DNA of 48,683 nucleotides, taken from positions 1 to 48,683 of the IMG/VR virus record IMGVR_UViG_3300047510_000374. One strand, written 5' to 3'. Of this stretch, positions 4,174 through 48,680 are shown piece by piece (the first letter of the stretch is position 1; each line of letters begins with the position of its first letter). The notes under the pieces were generated by a model. The model was not told the origin of the DNA. It worked only from the letters and a program-made list of their open reading frames with translations, and did no database searches. The DNA is from a virus. The position numbers and the translations under genes were made by a program.

Positions 4174-4241
4174 TGTGCTACACTCTGATGCATAACTGAA
4201 TACGGCAGCACTCCGGCCAGCGCGGATGCAGCCAGGCTAAT

Positions 4242-4273
4242 GGCCCTGGGGGATGACCCTCGGGGCCTTTTGT
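4242..4273 (+). terminator. Strong rho-independent terminator
   Basis: GGCCC at 4242 pairs with GGGCC ending at 4267, continued by an internal GGG/CCC pairing, and is followed by TTTTGTT. It closes the unit ending at 4173 and isolates the regulator gene downstream. Confidence 0.8.
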
Positions 4274-4290
4274 TGTGCCCATCCACCGAT

Positions 4291-4304
4291 AGTACATGTG
4301 TACT
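4291..4304 (+). promoter_or_regulatory. LexA-type inverted repeat ahead of the ribbon-helix-helix gene
   Basis: AGTACATGTGTACT consists of AGTAC and GTACT half-sites separated by four bases. It fits the cyanobacterial LexA box described for Anabaena (RGTAC-N3-D-GTWC-B) at every defined position. It lies 46 bases before the ATG at 4351 and just after a terminator, the place for a promoter/operator. The spacing GTA-N6-TAC excludes a canonical NtcA site (GTA-N8-TAC). Binding is inferred. Confidence 0.6.
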
Positions 4305-4350
4305 GTGGGGAGGGTTCGTTACGACATCACAGGGACGCACCCAAGTTCTC

Positions 4351-4524
4351 ATGGACGCACGCAAGTACAAGCGCACTACCACCCAACGGCTCACAGTGGT
4401 GTTGAGCGGGGTGGTTTTTCAGCGTGTTGAGGAGCAGTCACAGAAGGAGGGACGCAGCATGTCCAACCTCGTGGCTTACCTAGTGGAGCGCGCACTGTGT
4501 GACGACTGCCGAACTGGCCGGTAA
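4351..4524 (+). CDS. Ribbon-helix-helix (Arc/CopG-type) DNA-binding regulator (57 aa)
   Basis: The sequence shows a short beta strand (QRLTVVLSGV) followed by two helices joined by GRSMSN (VFQRVEEQSQKEGRSM, then SNLVAYLVERAL), the arrangement of the Arc/CopG fold, whose dimers insert a beta ribbon into the DNA major groove. The length is typical of a single-domain member. I chose the ATG at 4351; an upstream frame to 4240 would pass through the terminator and the operator. The gene is alone in its unit, between terminators at 4242 and 4664, with a LexA-type box upstream and TGATGCATCA-type inverted repeats on both sides. It may repress its own promoter or neighbouring early or integration genes. 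Target is inferred. Confidence 0.8.
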   Translation: MDARKYKRTTTQRLTVVLSGVVFQRVEEQSQKEGRSMSNLVAYLVERALCDDCRTGR

Positions 4525-4555
4525 GCGTTGCACCAGTGGAGAGACGCGGCATCAT

Positions 4556-4588
4556 TGATGCATCAGGGACGCGAGCTCCTGATGTATC
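4556..4588. promoter_or_regulatory. Inverted repeat GATGCATCAGG...CCTGATGTATC
   Basis: Eleven-base arms at 4557-4567 and 4578-4588 differ by one transition. The left arm also forms the perfect 10-bp palindrome TGATGCATCA (4556-4565). The related CTGATGCAT occurs at 4185-4193 on the other side of the regulator gene. Candidate operator for that regulator, or a hairpin in its 3' end. Confidence 0.45.
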
Positions 4589-4663
4589 GCAGGCACTGGG
4601 AACGGTCTCACCTGCCAAATACGTAGCACCGGTCCACCGCTCTTGAGAGTGGATCCTTGCCCA

Positions 4664-4706
4664 GCCGGAGGTGGCTCGTCAGTCAACACCGGCCTTTTTA
4701 TTTTTC
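4664..4706 (+). terminator. Rho-independent terminator after the regulator gene
   Basis: GCCGG-AG-GTG (4664-4673) pairs with CACCGGC (4687-4693) with a two-base bulge, followed by CTTTTTATTTTTC. Confidence 0.7.
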
Positions 4707-4790
4707 TTCCACGACAGTAAAAGCCTGTCGTTCACACAAGGACTCAACTCCTTGCCTGAACCGCTACAACAACGCCTTAGCCGTCAATTC

Positions 4791-4958: not shown

Positions 4959-5172
4959 GGAAGTAATGGAAGAAGTCATGGCGTGGCATCTTCCTGAACC
5001 TTACTGTGCTGTAGTTCGTGTCTATGACCGCAAACAGAATAAGCTGAAAGAGTATGCATACAAGTTGGAGTCAAAAGCTCACAACCGCATACGAGATCAT
5101 GCTTTATCTGATGATGAGGTCACGATCCTTACTAACTCCATTATCGGAACGATTAACTACCTTCCTGAATGA
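4876..5172 (+). CDS. Hypothetical acidic protein (98 aa)
   Basis: The protein starts MAKKDPFPNEWEEV, has a strongly acidic N-terminal part (NNLSDDDIETATVEEVMEE) and a more ordered segment beginning YCAVVRVYDRKQNKLKEYAY that reads like beta strands. It ends in TILTNSIIGTINYLPE. I do not recognise the family. The stop overlaps the next ATG (TGATG at 5170-5174), so it is translationally coupled to the 53-aa gene. The acidic character is reminiscent of small host-interacting phage proteins, but no function can be assigned. Confidence 0.65.
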   Translation: MAKKDPFPNEWEEVNNLSDDDIETATVEEVMEEVMAWHLPEPYCAVVRVYDRKQNKLKEYAYKLESKAHNRIRDHALSDDEVTILTNSIIGTINYLPE

Positions 5173-5333
5173 TGCTGACCTTTGATCAACTCGATCCTGA
5201 AGACGATCTTGAGGATCTCACGCTGTACCCTTCGCTTTATGCATATAGTGCATTTTGTGAGAGGTACGACGAAACCCCTATTGACTCGCTAGTACGGCTG
5301 TTCTACCTTGATCCGGCGAACGAGGCAGCATGA
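5172..5333 (+). CDS. Small acidic hypothetical protein (53 aa)
   Basis: MLTFDQLDPEDDLEDLTLYP starts on an ATG that shares one base with the previous stop. The sequence continues SLYAYSAFCERYDETP and ends LVRLFYLDPANEAA. Strongly acidic at the N-terminus, no membrane segment and no recognised family. The coupling to 4876-5172 and the regular helical pattern make it a plausible gene despite its size. Confidence 0.5.
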   Translation: MLTFDQLDPEDDLEDLTLYPSLYAYSAFCERYDETPIDSLVRLFYLDPANEAA

Positions 5334-5506
5334 CCCTGGCCTATCTTCCTTTGATCGGATTTTATTGTGGTTGGCAGCGGCATTTTTCAGCAAGAAAGCT
5401 GCATTTTTCCTGCACAAGATCCTCCATTAGTGCAGCATACCGTCAGTTTGAGCTAATTTGGGAGTGGTCTGATCCCGACGAAAGTGGTCCTCAAACAGGT
5501 TGTTGA
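5330..5506 (+). CDS. Doubtful small protein (58 aa)
   Basis: An ATG at 5330 overlaps the previous stop (ATGA) and opens 58 codons beginning MTLAYLPLIGFYCGWQRHF. The frame overlaps the MarR-like gene start and passes through the CTCCATTAGTGCAG motif. A nine-base direct repeat GCATTTTTC lies inside it. Composition (W, C and R rich) is not persuasive, and the stretch may simply be the leader and promoter of the MarR-integrase unit. Confidence 0.25.
   Translation: MTLAYLPLIGFYCGWQRHFSARKLHFSCTRSSISAAYRQFELIWEWSDPDESGPQTGC
5422..5435 (+). promoter_or_regulatory. CTCCATTAGTGCAG motif (copy 4)
   Basis: Variant of the repeated element, about 50 bases before the MarR-like start. CTGCAC (5410-5415) and GTGCAG (5430-5435) also form an inverted repeat that encloses most of it. 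Confidence 0.4.
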
Positions 5507-5834
5507 TGAAGACTTGTTACCTCTTTTAGAGGTGATGGCTGAGTTTCGGGCTCTTAGAAAGAGCCTACCGGCTCAAGCCGTTGCAGCATTTCTCTACATC
5601 GCAATCCACGAACGTGTGCTGCAAACTGATCTTGAGAAAGATCTTAAGATGAGTTCAGCTAGTGCAAGTCGCAATACGGACATGCTTTCTGATTGGGATA
5701 GGTTCGGAAAACCCGGCCCTAACTTAATCAAAAAGGAGCCAGACCCATTGATGGGTAATCGAATAATCCTGTCAATGACACCGCGTGGTGAACGCTTCGC
5801 CCTCACAATCAAGAGGATTCTCTATGGCACCTAG
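5484..5834 (+). CDS. MarR-family winged-helix regulator (116 aa)
   Basis: The segment LPAQAVAAFLYIAIHERVLQTDLEKDL followed by SSASASRNTDMLSD is the helix-turn-helix with recognition helix of MarR proteins, and NRIILSMTPRGERFALTIKRIL is the wing and C-terminal helix. The family binds DNA as a dimer and usually represses nearby promoters. The annotated start is GTG at 5484; the helical N-terminus EDLLPLLEVMAEFRAL supports a start near here. The last 11 bases overlap the integrase ATG at 5824, so the two are co-translated. MarR-type regulators next to integrase are known from T7-like cyanophages. Control of integration or early transcription is inferred. Confidence 0.75.
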   Translation: MVLKQVVDEDLLPLLEVMAEFRALRKSLPAQAVAAFLYIAIHERVLQTDLEKDLKMSSASASRNTDMLSDWDRFGKPGPNLIKKEPDPLMGNRIILSMTPRGERFALTIKRILYGT

Positions 5835-6909
5835 TCGCACATTTGGTGAGTGTGCAGAGTACACGTTCAAGACTCGTGATTCATGGGTACGTGAACGCAA
5901 GGCTGTTGAGGAGTGGAAACGCATTCAACAGATGCCCAAAGAACAGCGACCCAAGGTTTCAAAGCCTTCGATGTTCCGCACCATTCAAGTTAATCATGTG
6001 CTTGAGATGCGTGGTGCAAGCTATCCAATCTCTAGGCTCGATCAAGCTGGCGTAACTCAGCTTATCTTTGAGCTTGAAGATGAGCGCAACTGGACATCAA
6101 AGGAGACTGCTAACAAGGTTATTGATACCATCCGAACTATCGTCAACCATTGCAAACGGCATCGTTTTATTGACGAAGCTCCGTTTGATGCGTTGGAGAT
6201 GTTCAGTGGTTCGGAGTCACGTCTGACGTGGTTCACGATGTCACAGATGGAGCAGATGTACGAGGCTTCATGCAATGTCTTTGGTTACCCGGCGTTGGGG
6301 GAAATCTTCCTGACGTTGGGGCTTACTGGCATGCGTCTAGGTGAGCTTCAGAAGCTGCGTGTGATGGACATCGACATACCTAACCTGCGGATCCACGTAG
6401 GTGGGCGTGACGGTTTCGTCACCAAAACCAAGAACTGGCGTGTCATCCCCATTCAAGATCGGATCCTTCCGTTCATGATTGAAAGAACACGTGATCAGCC
6501 ACCTAAAAAGCACATCTTTGCTGATGACTTCGGCTCTGCTGATTCGTTACGACGCTCATTCAACAAGATCCGCAAGTATGTGGGGATTGATGAAAAGCAT
6601 GTGATCCATTCACTGCGTCATAGCTACGCCACGTTCCTCAATGAGTCTGGTGTGCCGCCGATGACCATCAAAGACTTGATGGGACACAAGCGGATCGAGA
6701 CCACACTTCGGTACTGCAAGGTGTCGGATGTGGCCCGTAATCAGGCCCAGGAGGCGCTCAATGCCCAGCTCCAGCGAGCTACGCAGCAGCCCGCCCCGGA
6801 GCCCCTTCAACCCACTCAGCCGTCCTATGACCAGCTCTTGAATCAGGTTAATGCTTTGCAACAATTGCTGGCCCAGATGCCGCAACTAACTGCAATGGCT
6901 CGGATCTAA
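5824..6909 (+). CDS. int: Tyrosine recombinase (phage integrase, 361 aa)
   Basis: Catalyses site-specific strand exchange between attP and a host tRNA gene. The catalytic set is visible: Arg at about 171 in GLTGMRLGEL, HSLRHSYATFL with His and Arg at about 262 and 265, His at about 288 in MGHKRIETT, and the nucleophile Tyr at about 297 in LRYCKV. The N-terminal 90 residues carry the SAM-like core-binding part. The ATG at 5824 was chosen over a GTG at 5785 that lies deep in the MarR-like gene. The C-terminus is proline and glutamine rich. It is followed by inverted repeats and the attP core, the arrangement known from P-SSP7. Integration without stable lysogeny has been reported for T7-like cyanophages; whether this phage lysogenises is open. 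Confidence 0.93.
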   Translation: MAPSRTFGECAEYTFKTRDSWVRERKAVEEWKRIQQMPKEQRPKVSKPSMFRTIQVNHVLEMRGASYPISRLDQAGVTQLIFELEDERNWTSKETANKVIDTIRTIVNHCKRHRFIDEAPFDALEMFSGSESRLTWFTMSQMEQMYEASCNVFGYPALGEIFLTLGLTGMRLGELQKLRVMDIDIPNLRIHVGGRDGFVTKTKNWRVIPIQDRILPFMIERTRDQPPKKHIFADDFGSADSLRRSFNKIRKYVGIDEKHVIHSLRHSYATFLNESGVPPMTIKDLMGHKRIETTLRYCKVSDVARNQAQEALNAQLQRATQQPAPEPLQPTQPSYDQLLNQVNALQQLLAQMPQLTAMARI

Positions 6910-7032: not shown

Positions 7033-7048
7033 TGACCTTGTGCCACTT

Positions 7049-7091
7049 GCGGATGTGGCGGAATTGGTAGACGCGCTAGTTTCAGGTTCGC
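7049..7091 (+). other. attP core: 5' half of a tRNA-Leu gene
   Basis: The bases starting GCGGATGTGGCGGAATTGGT read as the acceptor 5' strand, D-arm and anticodon stem-loop of a bacterial tRNA-Leu. The sequence after TTTCAGGTTC no longer fits a tRNA, so only the 5' half is present. P-SSP7 carries a 42-bp match to host tRNA-Leu at the same place after int. Integration here would rebuild the host tRNA gene from one side. The exact core boundary cannot be fixed without the host sequence. Confidence 0.88.
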
Positions 7092-7215: not shown

Positions 7216-9555
7216 ATGGTTTCACCTGCTCTCACGGAGCAACAAATCGAACTGGAGAAGCGAGCCATTGCCTACGGGCGGGAGCGGCTTCTCGATCAGA
7301 CACGCAAGCTGGAGGAGCGCTCCTACGGGTCGGCAACGGTCTATGGGTCCGCAAGTATCCAGGCGGCCCTTGGAGAGGTTTCACGGGTCATACAGGACAC
7401 CCTCAAGCGCATCCATGAGGGCAAGAACGGCGTCGAATTCGCCACCATCCACCAGTACCTCGCTGAGATCGAACCGGAGGCAGCCGCAGCCATTGCGTTG
7501 AAGCTGACCTTCGACAAGGTGTTCAGCCCAAAGGACAGGGCCAATGAGATCGCCAATGTGATCACAGCCATTGGCCAGGCTCTGGAGCAGGAGTGTCAGC
7601 TCCGCTGGTACGAGTCACAGGATCCTGAGCTGTATGACCGCATCAAGCGGCAGTACTGGCACAGCGCCTGTGGCACCCAGCAGAAGGCCACGGTTGCTCG
7701 CACGATGATGAATCGTCACGAGCATCACTGGGACAACTGGACAACGACCATACGAGCGAAGCTTGGTGGGTGGCTTCTTGACTGTGTGATGAAGGCCACG
7801 GGATGGTTTGAGAGGGTGACGGTTAAGCGTCACAACGGGACACCAACGCTGATTGTTCCCAGCCTTCTCTTTGCCATGCAAAAGGAGGAGCTGATGCAAG
7901 ACGCGCTGATGTTTGCTCCAATGGCTTGGCCCATGTTGGTCCCACCACGGGATTGGAGTTCCATCAAGGCTGGTGGCTACCTCCTCAACGAGGTTATGCA
8001 CGGGCATGAGATGGTCCGCAGGGGCGATAACGGACTAATACAGGGGAACACGCCACTCCTGTTTTTGAACAAGCTCCAGAAGGTTGCCTACACGCTCAAC
8101 GAGTTCATCGTCGACGTGGCTGAGACCTTGATGGAGCGTCAGTACAAGGTCGGTAAGTTCTTGCCGATCATTGAGCTACCCCTCCCCAACAAACCGTTCG
8201 ACATCGCGGAGAACGAAGAGGCTAGGCACGAGTACAGACGGCAAGCAGCAGAGGTGTTGAACCACAACGCTGCGTCATTCAAACGGTCCTGCCGTACACG
8301 AATGACCATGGAGACCGTCAAGATCTTCAAGGGGAAAGACAAGTTCTATCTCCCGTGGTCCTTTGACTATCGAGGTCGAACGTATCCGATCCCAGCCTTT
8401 CTCACCCCACAAGACACTGACTTCGGTAAGTCTCTACTGAAGTTTGCTGAACCGTCGTTCATGACGGACGAAGCAGAAGCTTGGTTGGCATTCCAAGTAG
8501 CAACTTGCTACGGGAATGGGTTGGACAAAGCCACGATGCAAGAACGTCAGGATTGGGTTCGTCAGAATCAAAGCCTGATTTCTCGTGTGGCTAATGCTCC
8601 ACTTGTGGAGATAGCTGAATGGGAGGCAGCAGACGAGCCGTGGCAGTTCCTTGCTGCATGTGAGGAGTACAACGCTTGTGTCATTGAATGCACAAGAAGT
8701 TGGACAAATCTGCCGGTTGCTATTGACGCTACGTGCTCAGGACTGCAGATCCTAGCTGGTATGGCGAGAGATCAATCAACTGCAAAGTTGGTCAATGTCT
8801 TTCCGTCAGATACACCACAGGATGCATACAAAGTTGTGGCAGAAACGGCTAAGCCGAAATTGCCAGATCACCTAGCTGTTCTTCTTGATCGGAAGGTCAC
8901 AAAGAGAACAGTGATGACCATTCCATACAACGCTACTAAGCACTCTAATCGGGCTTACATCCGTGAAGCCTTGAAAGAAAAGGGTGCTGAGTTCACACCA
9001 GAAGAACTCACTTTGATTGTTAACGCAGTCAGAGAAGCGATGTATGAAGTTGTCCCCGGTCCAATGCGTGTCATGGATTGGATCAAACAAGAAGTTGGCG
9101 CAGCGTTCAAACGCGGCGTAGATCACCTTACTTGGGAGACGCCGTCAGGTTTTGTTGTTAAACAAAACAGACGCAAAAGAAAAGTATCAACTGTACTTTT
9201 GCAGATTCTTGGTCGTTGTGAAGTGAACCTAACTACAGGTCACGAAGGACCAGATGTTGCTGGTCATAAGTCCAGCACAGCTCCCAATCTTATTCACTCA
9301 TTAGATGCTTCGATCTTGCATCAAGCATTCCTGAAGTTCAACGCACCGTTCACGGTGATCCACGATTCGGTCCTTTGTCGAGCAACTGACATGGGCACAT
9401 TGAATCGCGTAGTCAGGGAAACCTACTGCGAAATCTTTTCATCCAGCAATCCTCTTTTGGATTTTGCTGAAGCCATCGGAGCAGAGACAGAGCCACCAAT
9501 CATTGGTGATCTTGATCTTGATTCCGTCCTTGAATCCACCTACTTTTTCTGTTAA
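7216..9555 (+). CDS. gp1: Single-subunit DNA-dependent RNA polymerase (779 aa)
   Basis: T7-type polymerase that transcribes the middle and late phage genes. The catalytic residues are all present: Asp at about 503 in AIDATCSGLQ (T7 D537), Lys at about 563 and Tyr at about 571 in VTKRTVMTIPYNA (T7 K631, Y639), and Asp at about 717 in VIHDSVL (T7 D812). APNLIHSLDASI matches the T7 fingers motif. It is about 100 residues shorter than T7 RNA polymerase, usual for cyanophage members. The preceding terminator and palindromic motif suggest its own host-read promoter. The stop overlaps the SSB start (TAATG). Its own promoter sequence in this genome could not be identified by eye. Confidence 0.97.
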   Translation: MVSPALTEQQIELEKRAIAYGRERLLDQTRKLEERSYGSATVYGSASIQAALGEVSRVIQDTLKRIHEGKNGVEFATIHQYLAEIEPEAAAAIALKLTFDKVFSPKDRANEIANVITAIGQALEQECQLRWYESQDPELYDRIKRQYWHSACGTQQKATVARTMMNRHEHHWDNWTTTIRAKLGGWLLDCVMKATGWFERVTVKRHNGTPTLIVPSLLFAMQKEELMQDALMFAPMAWPMLVPPRDWSSIKAGGYLLNEVMHGHEMVRRGDNGLIQGNTPLLFLNKLQKVAYTLNEFIVDVAETLMERQYKVGKFLPIIELPLPNKPFDIAENEEARHEYRRQAAEVLNHNAASFKRSCRTRMTMETVKIFKGKDKFYLPWSFDYRGRTYPIPAFLTPQDTDFGKSLLKFAEPSFMTDEAEAWLAFQVATCYGNGLDKATMQERQDWVRQNQSLISRVANAPLVEIAEWEAADEPWQFLAACEEYNACVIECTRSWTNLPVAIDATCSGLQILAGMARDQSTAKLVNVFPSDTPQDAYKVVAETAKPKLPDHLAVLLDRKVTKRTVMTIPYNATKHSNRAYIREALKEKGAEFTPEELTLIVNAVREAMYEVVPGPMRVMDWIKQEVGAAFKRGVDHLTWETPSGFVVKQNRRKRKVSTVLLQILGRCEVNLTTGHEGPDVAGHKSSTAPNLIHSLDASILHQAFLKFNAPFTVIHDSVLCRATDMGTLNRVVRETYCEIFSSSNPLLDFAEAIGAETEPPIIGDLDLDSVLESTYFFC

Positions 9556-22818: not shown

Positions 22819-22893
22819 GCAACGTACGTTCATCCCATTGGGACGCATACCGCCTGATCATGGAACGGGGGTCAGGTACTTCAATCCAGAACA

Positions 22894-44987: not shown

Positions 44988-46729
44988 TGAATGTTCTTGA
45001 CGCGCTCAAGGATGACTTCAAGCTGTTCCTGCAAGCACTGTGGCAGCAGCTTGATTTACCTTCCCCTACACGAGCACAATACGCTATTGCAGATTATCTG
45101 CAATTAGGCCCCAAACGACTACAGATCCAAGCCTTTCGAGGAGTTGGTAAGAGCTGGATTACTGGAGCCTTTGTGTTGTGGACCTTGTTCAACAACCCAG
45201 AAAAGAAGATCATGATCATCTCCGCTTCAAAAGAGCGTGCAGATAACATGTCCATCTTCCTTCAGAAGCTGATCATTGAAACCCCGTGGCTAAGTCATCT
45301 AAGACCGAAGTCGGATGATGCTCGGTGGTCTCGGATCTCCTTTGACGTTAATTGTTCTCCTCACCAAGCACCGTCCGTTAAATCCGTTGGTATTACGGGT
45401 CAGCTCACAGGTTCTCGTGCAGACCTGATGATTCTCGATGACATCGAAGTTCCTGGTAACTCGATGACCGAGATGATGCGAGAGAAACTCCTTCAGCTCT
45501 GTACAGAAGCGGAGTCCATCCTCACACCGAAGAAGGACAGCCGCATTATGTACCTAGGGACACCCCAAACAACCTTCACCATCTACCGCAAGCTAGCGGA
45601 ACGTAACTACCGACCCTTTGTCTGGCCAGCCCGGTATCCCCGCAAAGACAAGCTCAGTCAATACGAGAACCTGCTAGCCCCACAGATCGTAGAAGACATC
45701 GAGATGGGTGCAGAAGAGTGGACACCCACTGACCCTGACCGCTTCCAATCCGATGACCTGTTGGAACGGGAAGCAGCCATGGGTCGTAGCAACTTCATGT
45801 TGCAGTTCATGCTGGATACCACTCTTAGTGACGCTGAGAAGTTCCCACTTAAGTTCAGTGACTTGATTGTCACCTCCGTCAACCCAAAACAAGCACCCGA
45901 TGCTGTGGTGTGGTGTTCTGATCCCCGCAACGTCCTCAAGGATCTCCCCACCGTAGGACTGCCTGGAGATTATTTCTATTCACCCATGCAACTTCAGGGT
46001 GACTGGAGCGACTACACCGAGACCATCTGCTCCGTAGACCCCAGTGGTCGTGGTAGTGACGAAACCGCTGCAACCTATATCTCTCAAAAGAATGGCTTTC
46101 TCTACGTTCACGAAGTACGAGCGTATCGCGACGGTTATAGCGACAATACACTTCTTGACATCCTTCGTGGGTGTAAGCGGTACAATGTTACTAAACTCCT
46201 TATCGAAACCAACTTCGGTGACGGTATCGTCGCAGAACTGTTCAAAAAACACCTTCAACAAACCAAGCAACCCATAGACGTAGAAGAAGTCAGAGCAAAT
46301 GTCCGTAAGGAAGACCGAATCATTGATGCTCTAGAACCCGTCATGAACCAACACCGCCTCATCGTTGATCGAGGGGTGGTGGAGTGGGACTATAGCTCCA
46401 ATAAAGACGCAGCACCAGAAGAACGACTGCTGTACATGCTCTTCTACCAGATGAGCCGCATGTGTCGGGAGAAGGGTGCAGTCAAACACGATGACCGACT
46501 GGACTCCCTAGCCCAGGGGGTGAAGTACTTCACAGATGCCATGTCCATCAGCGCCTACGAGGCCGTTAAAGCCCGTAGACAGGAAGATTGGCAAGACTTG
46601 CTTGAGACATTCTTGGATGACCCTCAGAGCGCCACAGATCACCTCGTGATGGGGCTGTCACTAGACCAACGAAGGGCAGCAAGAGGTGGCGGTAAACGGG
46701 GGAGCATTCCCACCTGGGTCTCAACATAA
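44987..46729 (+). CDS. gp19: Terminase large subunit, T7 gp19-like (580 aa)
   Basis: Motor ATPase and nuclease that packages DNA. Walker A is FRGVGKSW (Lys55), Walker B LMILDDIE (about 147-154) and the coupling motif follows in YLGTPQT. The nuclease half carries CSVDPSGRGSDETA (acidic metal ligand), LIETNFGDG and HDDRLDSLAQGVKY. Length matches T7 gp19 (586 aa). The start codon shares its A with the previous stop. The last 635 bases have a diverged second copy at the start of the window. It is the last conserved morphogenesis gene, as in T7. Confidence 0.97.
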   Translation: MNVLDALKDDFKLFLQALWQQLDLPSPTRAQYAIADYLQLGPKRLQIQAFRGVGKSWITGAFVLWTLFNNPEKKIMIISASKERADNMSIFLQKLIIETPWLSHLRPKSDDARWSRISFDVNCSPHQAPSVKSVGITGQLTGSRADLMILDDIEVPGNSMTEMMREKLLQLCTEAESILTPKKDSRIMYLGTPQTTFTIYRKLAERNYRPFVWPARYPRKDKLSQYENLLAPQIVEDIEMGAEEWTPTDPDRFQSDDLLEREAAMGRSNFMLQFMLDTTLSDAEKFPLKFSDLIVTSVNPKQAPDAVVWCSDPRNVLKDLPTVGLPGDYFYSPMQLQGDWSDYTETICSVDPSGRGSDETAATYISQKNGFLYVHEVRAYRDGYSDNTLLDILRGCKRYNVTKLLIETNFGDGIVAELFKKHLQQTKQPIDVEEVRANVRKEDRIIDALEPVMNQHRLIVDRGVVEWDYSSNKDAAPEERLLYMLFYQMSRMCREKGAVKHDDRLDSLAQGVKYFTDAMSISAYEAVKARRQEDWQDLLETFLDDPQSATDHLVMGLSLDQRRAARGGGKRGSIPTWVST

Positions 46730-47067
46730 GACACAAGTGGTATCAACGGATCTGCTTTGATCACACACTTATACAGGGGATGGGAAAGGGGAAGCGTCTC
46801 TCACGAGACGTGAGATCCACTTCCCACCCCTCTATCAATGTCCCTGGGGATGGACATTCTGTGAGTACTGAACTCAAATGACACAAAAGACACAATTTAT
46901 TGATGTCCTCAGCGAACGAAGTGAGCGGGTGAATGGACATCTCTAAATCACTACTACTACTTTCTTTTAGAGGAGAAGGAATCGGGATCATCTGAATGGC
47001 CTCTTGAATGGCCATCTGAATGATACAGGATTCATTTCTCTTATTTAAAAATTCAGTAGTTACTTCT
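46730..47067 (+). other. Non-coding segment with three hairpins (right copy)
   Basis: Counterpart of 636-984. It holds a long stem-loop (46776-46830), AATGTCC...GGACATT (46837-46858) and GATGTCC...GGACATC (46902-46941). The stretch from about 46830 to 47040 is almost unchanged between copies, far more conserved than the coding sequence on either side, which argues for function at the nucleic-acid level. No gene of convincing quality is present. Confidence 0.65.
46776..46830 (+). promoter_or_regulatory. Conserved stem-loop after terL (right copy)
   Basis: CGTCTC (46795-46800) and GAGACG (46805-46810) close a TCAC loop; GGGAAG (46789-46794) pairs with CTTCCC (46820-46825), and an outer GGGG/CCCC (46776-46779 with 46827-46830) can follow. 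Compared with 687-727 both arms of the stem have changed while staying complementary. Confidence 0.6.
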
Positions 47068-47259
47068 ATGTCTAGAACACATCGTAATCAGCCACAACAT
47101 CTATTCCGTCATCCTAAAACAACCAATGAACGTAAGCAGCTACGAGTATCCAATGACTATTACGATTCTGAATATCGGGTAAGTACTCGTAAACGTTATA
47201 TCCCAACAGCTTGGGATGACATCAAAGCTTCTTCGTACTACCAAAACGATCACCACTAA
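47068..47259 (+). CDS. Small basic cyanophage protein (63 aa), right copy only
   Basis: MSRTHRNQPQHLFRHPKTTN then ERKQLRVSNDYYDSEYRVST and RKRYIPTAWDDIKASSYYQN. Rich in Arg, His and Tyr; no membrane segment. From memory, short basic proteins of this type are common in marine cyanophages. The ATG at 47068 is preferred to an ATG at 47020 that lies in conserved non-coding sequence. The stop overlaps the thyX start by one base. In the left copy this gene is absent and the thyX N-terminus is altered. Confidence 0.65.
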   Translation: MSRTHRNQPQHLFRHPKTTNERKQLRVSNDYYDSEYRVSTRKRYIPTAWDDIKASSYYQNDHH

Positions 47260-47927
47260 TGCATTCTGTCAACCTTGTTCACATCACACCAGAAGCAGAG
47301 ACACTCATCAGCTACATGGCTAGGGTCTCTAACCCATCTAATCAATCAAACACGAAGGGCTTGTCACTTCGTGACTACACTGAGACCAGTGCTAAACTAA
47401 TTAAATACCTCATTGATCATCAACATTGGTCTCCCTTTGAGATGGTCAACATGTGTGTAGAGATCAACACCACTAGAGCTATAGCAGCTCAGATCCTTAG
47501 GCATAGAAGTTTCTCCTTTCAGGAGTTTAGTCAACGGTATGCAGATGTAACCACTATTGGTACTCCAATCATCCCATCACTACGTAGACAGGACTTCAAG
47601 AACCGTCAGAACAGCATTGATGACCTGGATACAACAAAGAAACAACAGTTCCTTCGTCGTATCCAACAACACTTTGCAGAAGCTGAGGATCTCTATAGGG
47701 AGATGGTGTCAGCAGGTGTAGCAAAGGAATGTGCAAGAGATGTTCTTCCATTGAGTGCCCCCTCTAGGTTGTACATGAATGGAACCATTAGGTCTTGGTT
47801 GCATTATTGTGATCTGAGGACAGCTAATGGTACTCAAAGAGAACATGCAATCATTGCTGGGCAAGTGCAAGATCTTCTCTATGAACACGTTCCTAATGTT
47901 TGTGAGGCGATGTGGAGCAAGGATTAG
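47259..47927 (+). CDS. thyX: Flavin-dependent thymidylate synthase (right-copy allele)
   Basis: Full ThyX of 222 aa with the RHRSFS signature at residues 81-86 and the following FQEFSQRYAD. The start is fixed by overlap with the preceding stop (TAATG). It has eight extra residues KGLSLRDY at 33-40, encoded by 24 bases that contain a perfect inverted repeat. These residues lie in a surface loop ahead of the conserved HWSPFEM segment, so activity is probably not affected. The C-terminus ends AMWSKD. The rest of the protein is more than 95 percent identical by eye to the left copy. Confidence 0.95.
   Translation: MHSVNLVHITPEAETLISYMARVSNPSNQSNTKGLSLRDYTETSAKLIKYLIDHQHWSPFEMVNMCVEINTTRAIAAQILRHRSFSFQEFSQRYADVTTIGTPIIPSLRRQDFKNRQNSIDDLDTTKKQQFLRRIQQHFAEAEDLYREMVSAGVAKECARDVLPLSAPSRLYMNGTIRSWLHYCDLRTANGTQREHAIIAGQVQDLLYEHVPNVCEAMWSKD
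47351..47373 (+). repeat. Perfect inverted repeat inside the thyX indel
   Basis: CACGAAG (47351-47357) and CTTCGTG (47367-47373) form a 7-bp stem. ACAC occurs at both borders of the 24 bases missing from the left copy, so slippage across a hairpin would explain the length change. Confidence 0.8.
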
Positions 47928-47958
47928 TTCTGTTTACCCGTAGTAGTCATTACCACTA

Positions 47959-48141
47959 ATGAAACGAGAACACAAAACCGAAATCCGAGAGTTCCTTTAT
48001 GAACGCCTCTTCAATGACAATCTTCGATGGGATCTCGCGAAAATGTGTGATCTCGCTGGTATTGAGCAACTGGAAGGCATAGAGGTCTACGAACAGGAGG
48101 CGGCTCGGATCCGCAAACTGTTCTGCCTCGACGCCCAGTAG
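47959..48141 (+). CDS. Small hypothetical protein (60 aa), right copy only
   Basis: MKREHKTEIREFLYERLFND then NLRWDLAKMCDLAGIEQLEG and IEVYEQEAARIRKLFCLDAQ. Helical, charged, no recognised motif. It replaces the 116-aa gene of the left copy: the upstream sequence (GTAGTAGTCATTACCACTAA) and the downstream sequence (TAGTCACCTTCACTTATGCC) are the same in both copies, and the change occurs exactly at gene borders. The stop codon TAG is the first shared triplet. Confidence 0.65.
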   Translation: MKREHKTEIREFLYERLFNDNLRWDLAKMCDLAGIEQLEGIEVYEQEAARIRKLFCLDAQ

Positions 48142-48158
48142 TCACCTTCACTTATGCC

Positions 48159-48446
48159 GTGGATCAACTTAAGTTAAATGAGTTCAAAGCTCTTTATAAG
48201 GCGTGGAGGACCAGTATTCCCTGGGTAGATCATCTTCTGCTTGGTCTTTTGGTTTGGTTAGAGGAGATGCTTATTTCCACACGTGTGGATAATGTGATTG
48301 ATCAAGCGATTGAGGAGTATGAGAAGGTGGAGGAACCTTTGCCTGATTGTGTCACTCCGGTCTATACGGAGACTTCATCAGAGGCCTCTACAAGGCTCCC
48401 TGAGATGCGTTTAACTGCTCCTTGGTATATTGACACCAAAGAGTAA
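48159..48446 (+). CDS. Hypothetical protein, 95 aa, GTG start (right copy)
   Basis: Allele of 2063-2350 with the same GTG start, length and terminal sequence (PLPDCVTPVYTETSSEAS at the C-terminal third). The middle (LEEMLISTRVDNVIDQAIEE) has changed in most positions while remaining helical and acidic. Constraint at the ends with a variable centre supports a real protein with a surface under diversifying pressure. Unknown function. Confidence 0.65.
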   Translation: MDQLKLNEFKALYKAWRTSIPWVDHLLLGLLVWLEEMLISTRVDNVIDQAIEEYEKVEEPLPDCVTPVYTETSSEASTRLPEMRLTAPWYIDTKE

Positions 48447-48452
48447 GAATAA

Positions 48453-48490
48453 GGCCCTTCTAGGTCATCCTGGAGGGGTCTTTAGTTTAT
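48453..48490 (+). terminator. Rho-independent terminator (right copy)
   Basis: GGCCCTTC (48453-48460) pairs with GAGGGGTC (48473-48480) with wobble pairs, followed by TTTAGTTTAT. Substitutions relative to 2357-2384 keep the stem pairable. Confidence 0.8.
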
Positions 48491-48680
48491 GGCAGAAATT
48501 TATCAAGCCTTATATAGCGGCGCACAAGGCCGCAGACCCCCCAGTACGGGTGTACTTCTGGAACGATTTGGGTCGTTGTTAGATCACCAGTCTACCCTCA
48601 AATGGTTCACTGTGATACAGAACCAGCACCTCTTACCCTTATTGAGAACAGTGAGAACCATTGCAGCGCAAGGGATCTGA
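48489..48680 (+). other. Open frame of 63 codons, probably not a gene; contains LexA-type box
   Basis: The frame starts MAEIYQALYSGAQGRRPPST and ends RTIAAQGI close to the window edge. The sequence does not look like a folded protein and it spans a TATATAGC element (48511-48518) and the palindrome at 48543-48556, so I read the region as promoter/operator and leader of an early unit that is cut by the window end. It has no counterpart after 2384. Confidence 0.35.
48543..48556 (+). promoter_or_regulatory. Second LexA-type inverted repeat
   Basis: AGTACGGGTGTACT has the same AGTAC-N4-GTACT architecture as the box at 4291 and also satisfies RGTAC-N3-D-GTWC-B. It lies about 25 bases after a TATATAGC stretch, downstream of a terminator. 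A host LexA operator at the start of an early transcription unit is inferred. Confidence 0.5.

Follow-up and report, generated by a model that had tools for sequence, protein, structure and literature searches.

LexA-type boxes at the MarR-integrase promoter and upstream of a ribbon-helix-helix gene as candidate host-controlled operators in T7-like cyanophages

T7-like cyanophages integrate at tRNA-Leu, S-TIP37 gave no stable lysogens, and no repressor has been recognised in these phages (PMC8776855). The locus described here raises the question of whether host LexA could take this role. A first-pass annotation of the window, i.e. the whole 48,683-nt stretch of IMG/VR record IMGVR_UViG_3300047510_000374, had noted a LexA-type box ahead of a small regulator gene and proposed an SOS-responsive switch. 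Our analysis located a further box of this type in the promoter of the MarR-integrase operon, and we consider it probable that the two sites are host LexA operators gating the integrase operon and the ribbon-helix-helix (RHH) gene by DNA damage.

A scan of the window with the cyanobacterial LexA consensus RGTACNNNDGTWCB returned four strand-matches (position 4291 on both strands, 5291 and 48543) compared with 0.56 expected. Box 1, AGTACATGTGTACT (4291-4304; no strand is assigned to any of the boxes), matches on either strand and, as originally described, lies between a strong terminator and a 57-aa RHH gene, about 20 bp past the former and 46 bp before the start of the latter. In a scoring matrix built from 24 distinct lexA, recA and umuD boxes of likely hosts (Cyanobium/Synechococcus), box 1 reached 21.18, above all 24 host boxes, the best of which scored 21.1. 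Of 300 Markov sequences as long as the window, not one attained 21.18, and random sequence yields 0.46 sites per Mb at scores of at least 18 and 1.3 per Mb at scores of at least 16. Within the window, the 14-bp palindrome RGTAC-N4-GTACY or RGTACNNNDGTWCB is present in box 1 (21.2) and in box 2 (16.9), which is described below.

The same motif marks lexA, recA and umuD of the likely hosts, for which 18 Cyanobium/Synechococcus genomes were collected by a PsaC search. Boxes of the phage form were found upstream of recA in 15 of 16 genomes and near several umuD-like genes, and lexA is preceded by a box at 9 of 15 loci (GGTACATCTGTATC and similar). Like the phage alleles, the recA boxes mostly read RGTAC-N4-GTACY with a variable centre; one phage allele, AGTACAGGTGTACC, coincides letter for letter with a host's recA box, and another, AGTACACATGTACC, with the umuD box of a second host. 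On its opposite strand, box 1 reads exactly as the recA box predicted in the literature for P. marinus MED4 (PMC3091678). In length, half-sites and free centre the phage boxes agree with the LexA boxes at cyanobacterial recA, lexA and umuD promoters (RGTACNNNDGTWCB; AGTACWNWTGTACT, PMC3091678), but they are located in phage DNA, and no sigma-70 promoter could be recognised across box 1. In those genomes where it was read in the right frame, host LexA is of the cleavable type, with an Ala-Gly cleavage site and the protease Ser and Lys. The matrix score and the identity of phage alleles with host recA and umuD boxes support the LexA-type character initially suggested for box 1, which is best read as a site that host LexA would bind.

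Box 2, AGTACGGCTGTTCT (5291-5304, score 16.9), lies outside the region that had attracted attention in the first-pass annotation and makes the stronger case of the two. It fills the spacer between TTGACT (5281-5286) and TACCTT (5304-5309), 17 bp apart, of a plus-strand promoter (TTGACT-N17-TACCTT, 5281-5309), a geometry that, judged by sequence, would suit simple repression by a bound protein. A -10-like TAYNNT is present in 13 of 13 relatives, while the -35 TTGAC is kept only in the closer ones. The first gene past this promoter, a 58-aa ORF taken from the ORF list (5330-5506), begins 20 bp beyond it and is followed by a MarR-like regulator of the gp0.7 family (5484-5834; PHROG 9665, E 1.5e-29; aligned to the S-CBP1, S-CBP3 and S-SRP01 proteins), a tyrosine integrase (5824-6909, with an ATG at 5824 in a frame open from 5785; Pfam PF00589, E 4e-24), an attP that corresponds to the first half of host tRNA-Leu, with a near-exact match of 39-40 bp (7048-7087; 39-46 bp aligned at 96-100% identity in 17 of 18 host genomes) and a T7-like RNA polymerase (7216-9555; Pfam RNA_pol, E 1.2e-66; 83.6% identical to that of S-SRP01), all on the plus strand. 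The earlier assignment of integrase, attP and MarR-like gene to a T7-like phage is borne out by these matches. In the T7-like phage LUZ100, MarR and integrase form one operon transcribed from a host promoter, and the main text of that report does not mention LexA or SOS (PMC10134795); the present module resembles it in that the MarR-like gene adjoins the integrase upstream of the RNA polymerase, presumably in one operon, whereas the LexA-like box in the MarR-integrase promoter is new here.

The nearest isolate, S-SRP01 (74% DNA identity in this region), is a T7-like phage that came from a freshwater reservoir and infects a freshwater Synechococcus, so that a freshwater Cyanobium/Synechococcus is a likelier host than a marine strain, and the marine Synechococcus host assumed at the outset is doubtful. 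A search of 400 host-family genomes with the RNA polymerase revealed no close prophage of this phage type, the closest match being 57% identical and lying on a 43-kb contig from which this module is absent. Full-length T7-like RNA polymerases of about 28% identity were also encountered in host-family genomes (G121, G185, G292, G147, G088 and others), some on megabase contigs, and may belong to unrelated prophages or mobile elements.

To assess how widely box 2 is kept, an alignment search with MarR was used, giving 56 loci with 47 distinct upstream regions in 31 sequence clusters. At a cut-off score of 13 or more, a LexA-like site was detected in 26 of the 47 upstream regions, corresponding to 16 of the 31 clusters of T7-like phages, nearly always 148-193 bp upstream of MarR. 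With 300 permuted matrices, by comparison, the mean was 0.11 clusters and no matrix exceeded 5; this control does not account for shared coding sequence and treats related loci that are not independent. The coding DNA downstream at these loci, 57 kb in all, contained no LexA-like site. Among cultured phages, S-SRP01 carries GGTACAGGTGTTCT followed by TACAAT at the matching place, and S-CBP1 and S-CBP3, both with annotated MarR and integrase, carry GATAC-N4-GTACT about 150-185 bp upstream of MarR, GATAC corresponding to the lexA half-site GTATC on the opposite strand; these boxes score only 14-15. P-SSP7, S-TIP37 and S-CBP2 possess MarR without a LexA-like site in the scanned upstream DNA, and the early regions of S-TIP37 and P-SSP7 are likewise free of such boxes; a match in S-TIP37 fell inside a capsid gene and was discarded. 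A LexA-like site is accordingly more widely kept at the MarR-integrase promoter (5281-5309) than at the RHH gene. The divergent relative L365 (G417) displays three LexA-like boxes within 3 kb, at 2238 in the left early region, at 4232 in the first RHH codons and at 5143 in the MarR-integrase promoter. Upstream of the box 2 promoter, an inverted repeat, TATGCA-N5-TGCATT (5238-5254, no strand assigned), has largely fixed third-codon positions in 13 relatives and is a candidate second operator, of the MarR-like or the RHH protein, which is not significant on its own within the window. An RHH operator of the form TATGCA-N5-TGCATA is only a lead, for which the literature search gave no comparison paper.

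Turning to box 1, the 57-aa ORF downstream of it (4351-4524, plus strand) was recognised as an RHH protein by Pfam RHH_5 (E 2.7e-10; 40.3 bits compared with a cut-off of 26) and PHROG ('Arc-like repressor'), in support of its earlier description as an Arc/CopG-type regulator. The upstream terminator (4242-4267) is strong, with an 11-bp stem of 9 GC pairs and a T-run. The gene had been regarded as its own transcription unit; it is indeed flanked by terminators, but no sigma-70-like promoter overlaps box 1 or lies between terminator and gene, and inspection by eye found no TANNNT that adjoins a box 1 half-site and is kept across alleles. An extended -10 (TGC-TACACT, 4176-4184, plus strand; consensus in relatives TGN-TANNNT, read from alignments) precedes a structured RNA, either a leader or a small RNA, which ends in the terminator (4190-4270, plus strand), is supported by an RNAalifold hairpin with compensatory changes (UA/AU/GC) and matched no Rfam family. 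Between box 1 and the RHH start, the leader motif CGTTACGACA...CAGGGACGCA (4317-4339, plus strand), reading CGTTACGACA...GGACGCA in relatives, is found in box-bearing and box-less relatives alike; as it occurs once per genome, CGTTACGACA was rejected as a T7-type phage promoter. Extended -10, structured RNA, terminator and the CGTTACGACA motif are kept in most RHH upstream versions. The small unit at 4176-4270, with its RNA of about 80 nt, is common to S-SRP01 and the IMG/VR relatives and stays attached to the RHH gene despite genes inserted upstream. RHH-like genes also exist unannotated in S-SRP01 (L001, after 5952) and, as weaker matches, in S-CBP1 and S-CBP3.

The RHH protein is encoded in 16 IMG/VR loci and the DUF7227 protein upstream of it in 53. 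Box 1 was present in 7 of 19 distinct RHH upstream versions and missing from the other 12, including that of S-SRP01, and is therefore not a general trait of orthologous RHH genes. Absence of the palindrome upstream of orthologous regulators was one of two outcomes that the first-pass annotation had held to count against its proposal, and this part applies to many of the orthologues. Where box 1 is present, its half-sites are fixed in five alleles, while the centres vary (ATGT, ACAT, AGGG, GGCC, AGGT) and the flanks have diverged. About four gains or losses are needed on the DUF7227 tree, a pattern indicating gain, loss or recombinational transfer of the box. Two divergent contigs, L035 and L037, have a box within the first RHH codons instead.

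Could the boxes be something other than LexA sites? Binding to a short palindrome ahead of the protein's own gene is common among RHH proteins, and the position of box 1 just ahead of the RHH gene would fit an autoregulatory operator, as would its two GTAC sub-sites 8 bp apart, which would suit two RHH dimers at a centre-to-centre spacing resembling that of MetJ/CopG-type operators. We nevertheless regard this reading as unlikely, given that the same sequence is found at host recA, lexA and umuD and recurs at MarR-integrase promoters, and that the RHH protein of L015, 93% identical and with the same N-terminal strand, has no box upstream of its gene. Comparably unlikely is a combination of coding constraint and chance, under which conservation of the peptides LVRxYY and DDTxVL would account for box 2, and box 1 would be an accidental palindrome inherited from a common ancestor. 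Since box 2 sits inside a short ORF, part of its conservation is indeed coding; the TerL peptide likewise produces a spurious 14-point matrix match in many loci, and box 1 alleles were partly spread by recombination. However, in 13 relatives the third-codon bases are fixed in the box 2 half-sites and the -10 but free in the box centre. The half-site Val codon is GTA in 11 of the 13, although GTA makes up 18% of Val codons, and the third base opening the second half-site is G in all 13, across five different amino acids. Boxes of this type also outlast changes of the peptide (L375, L387, L400), and box 1, which is non-coding, keeps both half-sites through five centres at an expected rate of 0.46 per Mb. 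Least probable of all is that box 1 acts as RNA, through a hairpin AGUAC-N4-GUACU in the RHH leader affecting translation or termination: any palindrome can fold and the region lies 3' of a structured RNA, yet in three of the five alleles an outer A-C pair breaks the stem while suiting the RGTAC half-site on both strands, and we rejected the hairpin on this ground.

With LexA operators as the preferred reading, the following course can be proposed. In the undamaged cell, LexA at box 2, between -35 and -10, would hold the operon of 58-aa ORF, MarR-like gene and integrase low, while LexA at box 1 would block transcription into the RHH gene. As no sigma-70 promoter was found at box 1, we infer that the latter block most likely acts as a roadblock, stopping polymerases that read through from the upstream RNA promoter (4176-4184). 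Upon DNA damage, RecA would trigger self-cleavage of LexA, and its loss would release integrase, MarR and RHH together, so that the damage sensor of the host would gate integration or excision along with the phage regulators. Binding, repression, SOS induction and any later action of the RHH protein are thus predicted, and damage to the host's DNA may set the timing of viral integration or excision. The initial idea that an RHH regulator under LexA decides between lysis and lysogeny is not supported in that form. Alternatively, and somewhat doubtfully, LexA might bind the boxes without any life-cycle decision and, during an infection that is lytic throughout, only hold back integrase and regulators until the host DNA suffers damage or degradation. 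This is a variant of the LexA-operator reading and not exclusive of it. The integration of T7-like cyanophages without stable lysogens of S-TIP37 (PMC8776855) would agree with mere delay; P-SSP7 and S-TIP37, for which integration but no lysogeny is known, may however be unrepresentative because their early regions have no LexA-like boxes.

In coliphage 186, the phage regulator Tum is under LexA control. The RHH gene would be comparable as a small phage regulator under putative control of host LexA, but an antirepressor role is only putative here and the integrase operon would be affected as well. A precedent for a phage using host LexA is GIL01, which is repressed by it (PMC4551915); in both cases a promoter of the phage carries operators for the host's LexA, here predicted from sequence, whereas GIL01 is a Bacillus phage with the helper protein gp7 and the present candidate boxes belong to the MarR-integrase operon and RHH gene of T7-like cyanophages. 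Integron integrases under SOS control (PMC3108266) likewise place integrase expression under LexA, as is putative here, but concern integrons and not phages, with other hosts and LexA motifs. Among the listed papers containing both LexA and cyanophage, no title or abstract opening mentioned LexA boxes in cyanophage genes. Tentatively, and at rather less than even confidence, host LexA may be the repressor that T7-like cyanophages seemed to lack, borrowed by freshwater and estuarine lineages for the MarR-integrase operon and by some also for RHH, as a damage-triggered life-cycle switch without counterpart in the marine lineages tested so far. A candidate operator that many lineages carry in their MarR-integrase promoter, and that is missing from the two marine phages tested, would offer a concrete reason for the lack of stable lysogens and, if true, would connect DNA damage, for instance by UV, with phage integration in surface waters. 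T7-like cyanophages thereby gain a testable candidate repressor, with LexA-like boxes upstream of MarR in the cultured S-SRP01, S-CBP1 and S-CBP3.

The remaining consensus match, box 3 (AGTACGGGTGTACT, 48543-48556, score 21.15), is located in a second, non-identical copy of the left region of the genome. The window ends 1-2400 and 46095-48500 repeat each other at a spacing of about 46.1 kb with 84-97% identity and contain the TerL end, thymidylate synthase and a 95-aa ORF. The record thus exceeds one genome, being either a tandem pair or a chimera formed from two variants; with the right end from 46095 being such a copy of the left end, box 3 is probably part of a variant that was co-assembled. 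Relatives have no box at the corresponding site, and box 3 was rejected as a conserved operator. At 2514, a degenerate site (GGTACGGACGAACT) corresponds to a perfect box in G417 but, with a score of 10.9, is too weak to be claimed, and the recurrent match AGTACGAGCGTATC, present at 20 and again at 46114, falls in sequence that codes for TerL. Elsewhere in the window, a Glutamine-II riboswitch was identified at 22824-22877 (Rfam RF01704, 52 bits).
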